64,000 nt of DNA, from contig NZ_CP049867.1 of the NCBI RefSeq assembly GCF_011299595.1, forward strand, positions 3,162,001-3,226,000. Direction: 5' to 3'. The stretch is from Nocardioides sp. HDW12B (GTDB taxonomy: Bacteria; Actinomycetota; Actinomycetes; Propionibacteriales; Nocardioidaceae). Under the pieces are notes generated by a model. That model made no database searches, was not told the DNA's origin, and saw only the letters and a list, made by a program, of their open reading frames with translations. Made by a program: the position numbers and the translations under genes. How positions within the stretch are numbered: the first letter of the stretch is position 1; each line of letters begins with the position of its first letter. This document shows, piece after piece, positions 7,791 through 44,903 of the stretch.

Positions 7791-7878
7791 GGTTTCCCAC
7801 GGTATGTCGACGAACTGGCACTCCCCACGCTCCGGACGCCATGGGGAGTGCCAGTTCTCCTGCATACCGTGGGAAACC
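7791..7878. repeat. Nested palindromic element between convergent genes (copy A)
   Basis: Two perfect nested stems: outer arms GGTTTCCCACGGTATG (7791-7806) and its complement at 7863-7878; inner arms AACTGGCACTCCCCA (7813-7827) and its complement at 7842-7856. It lies between the stops of the SDR and PHP genes and could act as a terminator on both strands. The element at 44810-44903 shares the pattern GGTTTCnCnnGGTA outside and TGGCnCTnCCC inside, so the two are probably related copies. Confidence 0.75.
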
Positions 7879-39719: not shown

Positions 39720-40766
39720 GTGCCCCTGCCGACCGCCCTCGGGCCCGCCTGCCTGGGGCTGCGCGTCGTCGTACGGCGCGTGCTGCCCGGCGAGACCGGC
39801 CCGAGCGGCGGGCCGGCGATGACCGACGTGCTCGGGGTGCTGGAGAGCTGGGAGGACGACGCGCTGACGGTGCGGCGCGAGGACGGCTCAGTCGTCCGGG
39901 TCGACCGGTCGACGCTGGTCTCGGGCAAGGCAGTGCCGCCGCGGGCGTCGGTGCGCCACCGGGTGCCGGCCGAGGTGGCCGCCCGGAGGGCGCTGGGCTC
40001 GTGGCCGGCCGTCGAGGCCGAGCCGCTCGGCGACTGGGTGCTGCGGGCGTCGGGGGGCTTCAGCGCCCGGGCCAACTCGGTGTTCCTCACCGGCGACCCG
40101 GGGATGCCCTGGGACGAGGCCGTGGCGCGGGCACGGGCGTTCTACGCCGAGCGCGACCTGCCGGCGTGGGCGCAGGTCGTCGTCGGCTCCCCCGAGGACC
40201 TGCGCGCCGACGCCGAGGGGTGGCACCAGGCCCGCCCCGGTGAGGCCGACTCGCTGCTGCAGGTCGCCTCGGTCGCCCAGGCCGTCCGTCAGGCGCGCGA
40301 ATTCCGTTCACAAGAACGTTCAGACCCTCCCCGTGACGGCGTGGACGGGGATCTGAACGTTCTTGTGAACGAGATGTTCGTCCGAGAGGAGATGACCGAC
40401 GGGTGGCTGGCGACCGACGAGCGGGCCCGCGAGCGGCCGGAGGCGTCGCGGGCGGTGCTGGAGGGGCCGGACCACGTGGCGTTCGTGACGCTCGAGGTCG
40501 ACGGCGCGGTCGTGGCGCGGGCCCGGGCGGCGATGCCCGACAGCGACGACTGGGTCGGCCTCACCGACGTGTGGGTCGACCCCGAGCGGCGCCGCGGCGG
40601 GCTGGCCCGGTCGGTGGTGGGCGCGCTGATGCCGTGGGCGGCCGAGCGGGGCGCGAGCACGGCGTACCTCCAGGTCCGCGCGGACAACGCCGCCGGGCTG
40701 GCGCTCTACCAGCGGTTCGGGTTCGTCACCCACCACGCCTACCGCTACCTGCGCCTGCCGGACTGA
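39720..40766 (+). CDS. GNAT-family N-acetyltransferase with N-terminal SH3-like region
   Basis: A 348-aa protein. Residues 1-75 form a small beta domain (LGLRVVVRRVLPG, TDVLGVLESWEDDALTVRREDGSVVRVD), the head found in a class of actinobacterial GNATs; the rest resembles a double GNAT, with the acetyl-CoA loop VWVDPERRRGGLARSVVGALM near 282-302 and ALYQRFGFVTHHAYRYL near the end. GTG start behind AAGGA. A 65-nt perfect-stem palindrome (40306-40370) interrupts the coding sequence in frame and encodes the odd stretch FRSQERSDPPRDGVDGDLNV between the two halves. The substrate is unknown. Confidence 0.87.
   Translation: MPLPTALGPACLGLRVVVRRVLPGETGPSGGPAMTDVLGVLESWEDDALTVRREDGSVVRVDRSTLVSGKAVPPRASVRHRVPAEVAARRALGSWPAVEAEPLGDWVLRASGGFSARANSVFLTGDPGMPWDEAVARARAFYAERDLPAWAQVVVGSPEDLRADAEGWHQARPGEADSLLQVASVAQAVRQAREFRSQERSDPPRDGVDGDLNVLVNEMFVREEMTDGWLATDERARERPEASRAVLEGPDHVAFVTLEVDGAVVARARAAMPDSDDWVGLTDVWVDPERRRGGLARSVVGALMPWAAERGASTAYLQVRADNAAGLALYQRFGFVTHHAYRYLRLPD
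40306..40370. repeat. Palindromic element inside the GNAT coding sequence
   Basis: GTTCACAAGAACGTTCAGA (40306-40324) pairs with its complement at 40352-40370, and TCCCCGT (40328-40334) with ACGGGGA (40345-40351), leaving a 10-nt loop and one 3-nt bulge: 26 paired bases. It is read through in frame. Local GC is clearly below that of the gene. Confidence 0.85.
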
Positions 40767-40776
40767 CCCCCGAGTA

Positions 40777-40798
40777 CGTCGCTCCGCTCGGAGCGACG
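40777..40798. terminator. Convergent terminator hairpin
   Basis: CGTCGCTCC (40777-40785) pairs with GGAGCGACG (40790-40798) around GCTC, in the gap between the GNAT and VanW stops. Confidence 0.6.
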
Positions 40799-44809: not shown

Positions 44810-44903
44810 GTCGGTTTCACTAGGTACCTAGTGATCCTGGCGCTTCCCGAGCGAAGTTTCGTGCGGGAAGCGCCGGTTTCACTAGGTACCTAGTGAAACC
44901 GAC
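44810..44903. repeat. Nested palindromic element between convergent genes (copy B)
   Basis: Perfect 25-bp outer arms at 44810-44834 and 44879-44903, each containing the self-complementary CACTAGGTACCTAGTG, enclose 11-bp inner arms GGCGCTTCCCG (44839-44849) and its complement (44864-44874). It fills the space between two convergent unknown genes. Architecture and core words match copy A at 7791-7878. Confidence 0.8.

Follow-up and report, generated by a model that had tools for sequence, protein, structure and literature searches.

A hairpin in frame within a GNAT gene

The window, by which we mean the whole 64,000-nucleotide stretch of the Nocardioides sp. HDW12B genome analysed here, contains an ORF for a Rv0428c-like GNAT acetyltransferase that carries a palindromic element (Table 1). 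The ORF matches PF24553 (E 2e-27) and Acetyltransf_1 (E 1.5e-16), and its top NCBIfam model, the N-acetylglutamate synthase CG3035 family, gave 160.8 of 280 bits, well under the cut-off. The element (40305-40371) has a perfect 20-bp stem, in which the outer pair C40305/G40371 extends the pairing of the 19-nt arms, and an inner 7-bp stem separated from the arms by a 3-nt bulge, an arrangement well above chance expectation. The original prediction of a hairpin in frame in this ORF and AT-richer than the gene was borne out, since the GC content of the 65-nt segment is 0.569 compared to 0.775 for the remainder of the gene, and its GC3 is 0.50 compared to 0.94 for the GNAT gene. The predicted RNA fold of positions 40286-40390 has a free energy of -57.5 kcal/mol (z -6.75 vs shuffles), and the DNA fold of positions 40297-40379 has a z of -8.17 vs shuffles. 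When the window was searched for the arm with up to three mismatches, only these two matches were found, and none of 100 dinucleotide shuffles gave two matches (mean 0.00). An in-frame ATG at 40373 lies directly past the stem.

Table 1. Features of the GNAT locus (window positions).
Feature	Position	Strand	Remark
Host ORF, 348 aa, Rv0428c-like GNAT acetyltransferase	39720..40766	+	Element in frame between the two halves
Left outer flank, consensus GCACATTTC	40297..40305	+	Weak match at the GNAT copy; alignment of 13 copies
Left arm of the family-A palindrome (GTTCACAAGAACGTTCAGA)	40306..40324	+	The left arms of the 12 other copies match it
Variable core, 27 nt	40325..40351	+	Inner 7-bp stem 40328-40334/40345-40351
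Right arm, 19 nt, perfect inverted copy of the left arm	40352..40370	-	Inverted-repeat comparison
Right outer flank, consensus GAAATGTGC	40371..40379	+	Reads GAGATGTTC at the GNAT copy; alignment of 13 copies
Separate short hairpin just 3′ of the GNAT stop (CGTCGCTCC-GCTC-GGAGCGACG)	40777..40798	+	The gene's own end hairpin; sequence unrelated to the element

We compared the host protein with 29 aligned homologues. Matches occurred in 61 genomes, from which 30 loci were retrieved, one of them being the window's own. Between fixed anchors, the linker measures 47 residues in the window GNAT and 23-43 (mode 31) in the homologues, none of which has a stretch matching the insert. GNAT linkers differ widely among relatives, and three of the 29 are nearly as long (41-43 residues). 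The linker is thus longer than in the homologues, by a net gain of about 16 residues and not the 22 or so originally expected. Solved structures match the C-terminal GNAT fold only and do not cover the linker, and a structure predicted from the single sequence (mean pLDDT 45.8) was set aside.

An Rfam search of the element gave no family match, apart from a single chance match to SNORD88 under the cut-off. A phage origin was also considered and rejected, as the best of 54 records returned at E values up to 10 had an E of 4 and was read as chance. Integron attC sites and DNA uptake signals were considered only in passing and dropped.

A dispersed family of palindromes

A search of the genome (4.19 Mb, one contig) with the arm pattern, allowing up to three mismatches, found 30 arms, and BLAST with the element returned the same places. 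They include 13 strong copies of a palindrome of about 83 bp, hereafter family A, of which 12 lie outside the window. All placed arm matches occur in palindrome pairs, except for a single arm at 333102, and the 30 arms gave no sign of an insertion sequence that shares these ends and could be the parent. The 13 clear copies score 56.7-95 bits (both strands counted) under a covariance model derived from them, and five further places in the genome score 22.7-37.7 bits.

The consensus of family A is GCACATTTC-GTTCAAAAGAACGTTCAGAACCCC-core-GGGGTTCTGAACGTTCTTTTGAAC-GAAATGTGC, where each arm contains the sub-palindromes GTTC-N4-GAAC and GAACGTTC. The core between the 19-nt arms is 27 nt long in 12 copies and 28 in one. 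Between copies, the left arms are 89% and the right arms 94% identical, and the two arms of one copy share 95%. Within the core, on the other hand, the inner 17 nt show 31% identity among the 12 copies compared vs 29% in shuffles (the largest of 200 being 32.5%), with one core pair reaching 71%. Two-sided changes occur at eight stem pairs, a number matched by one of 500 shuffles, whereas slid controls gave one to six (six at +3). Hence, the palindrome as such is maintained, and the data fit its upkeep either by selection or by hairpin-templated repair. No consistent direct repeat indicative of a target duplication was found beside the 13 copies.

Placement at gene ends

Eleven of the 13 copies have a coding-like stop codon at a distance of 6-24 nt from the core, three of them on both sides, while 117 of 4000 random placements meet the same stop criterion (in a 400-kb sample, with a slightly laxer ORF filter). 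The two remaining copies lie inside ORFs, namely the GNAT gene and an MDMPI_N-like gene. Three further copies are overlapped by ORFs that pass the GC filter; these ORFs were judged spurious because the neighbouring genes carry Pfam matches. The neighbours are mostly ordinary metabolic genes, with a Pfam match in 16 of the 18 scanned proteins (the MDMPI_N-like host included). The copies are clustered, with four gaps under 10 kb (P 0.0003 vs a uniform placement, which takes no account of the gene-end bias). The gene-end copies may act as transcription terminators: the hairpin itself is present and, unlike in a textbook intrinsic terminator, no U-run follows the stem.

A second in-frame copy

The second in-frame copy, at 3857111, lies in a TIGR03086/MDMPI_N gene (contig positions 3856932-3857546) whose product matches TIGR03086 with 88.9 bits (cut-off 83) as well as PF11716. 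The segment with the palindrome measures 53 residues in this protein, vs 36-39 in the eight closest homologues and 37-44 in eight further ones, which include one paralogue from the same genome. The palindrome is read in different frames in the two genes. Both host proteins have a net gain of some 16 residues over most relatives, which is less than the 65-nt core would add, and so host sequence was partly replaced, lost or diverged and the insertion was not clean. Over 83-84 nt, the frame is open in 12 of the 13 copies on the given strand and in all 13 on the other, which should make translation through the element easy.

Distribution in relatives

A search of 293 further genomes from this taxonomic family gave no full copy of family A. 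The other copies of the 65-nt sequence that were originally proposed as a check were thus found in the genome itself and in none of these relatives. With up to two mismatches, the arm occurs in two of the 294 family genomes, namely in the genome itself and as a single-arm match in G054, and with one mismatch in none of the four other members of the genus. Across 61 genomes, the covariance model gave, outside the genome itself, only weak matches (E 0.003-0.08) in two genomes of one genus, G013 and G047. Two of the loci concerned (L112 and L115) are direct repeats around GTTCATGTGAAC or GTTCACGTGAAC, with a faint likeness to the arms. No palindrome of family A or B was seen where G054, G018 and G047 have a single-arm match, and these matches were rejected. 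The exact doubled motif was found in five stretches of the genome_contigs collection, a scan that may leave out near genomes; all five come from SAR324-type MAGs, differ in their flanks, have a gap of 24-25 nt where family A has 27, and were judged unrelated. These stretches (L075-L079) have in common a palindrome GAACGTTCAGA...TCTGAACGTTC, which is probably a separate repeat.

A search of the genome for the Y1 transposase domain PF01797 gave no match, while control matches were obtained in five of 14 genomes, including E. coli. A RAYT gene may have been lost earlier or be present elsewhere. A literature search at the level of titles returned no description of such a repeat in this group.

Other palindromes in the genome and its relatives

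A second family with related outer arms, family B (TTTCGnnCACAAGTTCGCTCATGTGAC...GTCACATGAGCGAACTTGTGCACGAAA), occupies ten places in the genome (e.g., L182, L183 and L180). A coding-like stop lies nearby in eight of these, one copy is situated between divergent ORFs (167530), one was not called by the filter, and none lies in a coding-like ORF. In other genomes, six of 28 orthologous or homologous gene ends carry a perfect palindrome with arms of at least 10 nt and unrelated sequence, the longest, with 23-bp arms, being just past the stop of the GNAT ortholog in G001 (L090).

Palindromes with arms of at least 12 nt and a span of up to 95 were counted in 400-kb samples (Table 2). Taken together, the sample counts and the gene-end cases indicate that long gene-end palindromes are common in the group and that some families are private.

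Table 2. Palindromes per 400-kb sample; the expectation is an estimate based on mononucleotide shuffling of half the stretches.
Genome	Palindromes	Shuffle expectation	At most 60 nt from a coding-like stop	Only inside coding-like ORFs
Own	38	12	21	7
G001	37	4	16	12
G017	42	8	16	9
G002	44	10	19	16

Several other palindromes were observed in passing. At window positions 44812-44901, there is one of the same layout whose arms are themselves palindromic (CGGTTTCACTAGGTACCTAGTG); the 24-nt palindrome GTTTCACTAGGTACCTAGTGAAAC from this place occurs at one site in the 400-kb sample of the genome itself, at three in that of the sister G002 and at none in those of G001 and G017. Another perfect palindrome, GAACTGGCACTCCCC...GGGGAGTGCCAGTTC, lies at window positions 7812-7857, and two loci of G017 (L248 and L250) are palindrome arrays with the arms GGTGTATCGAGAC and CGGCACTCGACCA.

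Discussion

The hairpin in the window is a copy of a dispersed palindrome family with a REPIN-like layout and no full copy in the sampled relatives, and two copies of this family lie in frame in ORFs. On the reading that we consider likely, these two are translated as passenger peptides. Family A would spread within the genome, probably via a single-stranded hairpin intermediate or by template switching during replication. Most of the surviving copies would be those just past stop codons, where they are presumably harmless and may serve as two-way gene-end hairpins, either stopping transcription or protecting mRNA 3′ ends. The GNAT and MDMPI_N-like copies could have entered a linker or loop that tolerates them, the frame being kept by the net gain, and the DNA hairpin carried by the ORF would then be translated into a short passenger peptide. 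The original proposal of a mobile palindromic element kept in frame stands as regards the dispersed family of 13 copies, two of them in ORFs, whereas movement is inferred, with no empty-site strain, mobilising enzyme or consistent target duplication found. Two observations had been named in advance as speaking against the proposal, homologues carrying the same residues without the palindrome and the lack of any second copy, and neither was made.

The strong association with gene ends raises the question of whether the palindromes are ordinary species-specific terminators, which arose or were copied in place and are not mobile, the ORF copies being rare misplacements. The stop at a distance of 6-24 nt, seen for 11 of the 13 copies, would fit this, as would the similar placement of eight of the ten family-B copies and the perfect palindromes of other sequence at six of the 28 related gene ends elsewhere. 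We nevertheless consider this explanation unlikely, since a copying process is needed for 13 unrelated genes to have 19-nt arms that are nearly identical, two copies lie inside translated ORFs, the stem has no trailing U-run, and the family-B copy at 167530 is situated between divergent ORFs. The arms could also be putative sites of a dimeric DNA-binding protein, either a regulator or a chromosome-organising protein, in which case the arms and their spacing would be selected and the core would be a mere spacer. Conserved arms around a free core with a length of 27 nt in 12 of 13 copies, the sub-palindromes in each arm and the clustering of the copies are all compatible with such sites; however, the intergenic copies lie at gene 3′ ends and not upstream of promoters, the covariation of the arms within a copy is more simply explained by hairpin pairing, and the sampled relatives have no full copy, so that we regard this as quite unlikely. 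That the hairpin regulates the GNAT message as an RNA structure, one of the roles originally suggested, for instance by pausing translation or providing an internal start for the catalytic half, seems highly improbable. The very stable RNA fold and the ATG just past the stem would suit this role, but 12 other copies of the sequence lie with unrelated genes, the 29 aligned GNAT homologues are shorter at this point and have no matching stretch, and no Rfam family matches the element.

Compared with known systems, the family resembles REPINs in its layout. REPINs are REP doublets forming hairpins, with 430 doublets in SBW25, and are paired with a RAYT gene (Bertels and Rainey 2011, PMC3116915). 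As described there, they have two conserved inverted ends and a less conserved spacer, can form a hairpin in single-stranded DNA or mRNA and are mostly extragenic, as is the case for family A; but they number hundreds of copies and have the RAYT, whereas family A has 13 strong copies in a genome that gave no Y1_Tnp match. GTAG- and CGTC-tagged REPs are reported as small palindromes that for the most part follow coding regions, between tandem and convergent ORFs, with some intragenic (PMC3733652). Family A is likewise found mostly downstream of genes, with some copies inside them; its arms, however, are longer than a single REP of 20-40 bp, and the GTAG/CGTC tag is absent from the ends of all 13 aligned copies. 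Because both the tag and the RAYT are absent, we do not assign family A to the REP or REPIN families. MITEs are similarly short, non-coding and dispersed and have inverted repeats, but family A has no consistent target duplication and no insertion sequence sharing its ends.

The Rickettsia palindromic elements measure 105-150 bp, and about half lie in ORFs, with conserved peptides in the set cited (PMC10969869, PMC2229807). According to these sources, they too are dispersed palindromes that occur in frame in genes for unrelated proteins as well as between genes, and the analogy, already drawn in the original prediction, is strengthened by the second in-frame copy at 3857111. On their description, they are set apart from family A, which is about 83 bp long, has two of 13 copies in ORFs, is read in two frames and encodes no conserved peptide. 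We therefore describe family A as REPIN-like in its layout and RPE-like in its ORF copies, and as a member of neither. In summary, family A is new but of an already known kind, and such repeats are common in the genome and its relatives.

With two independent cases in different frames, these results extend the Rickettsia-type finding, that palindromes are translated in working genes, to a genome of high GC content whose enzymes include those of the mycothiol and F420 types. The missing Y1 transposase raises the question of how the palindromes copy themselves and keep their symmetry. As a speculation with the odds against it, genome-private palindromes without tag or transposase might be portable gene ends, that is, self-copying elements in which hairpin-templated repair keeps the arms identical and the cores stay free, which are replaced fast between species at gene 3′ ends and are occasionally translated in frame as new linkers. 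With several private gene-end families per genome, the turnover of gene-end hairpins can be tested by strain comparison.
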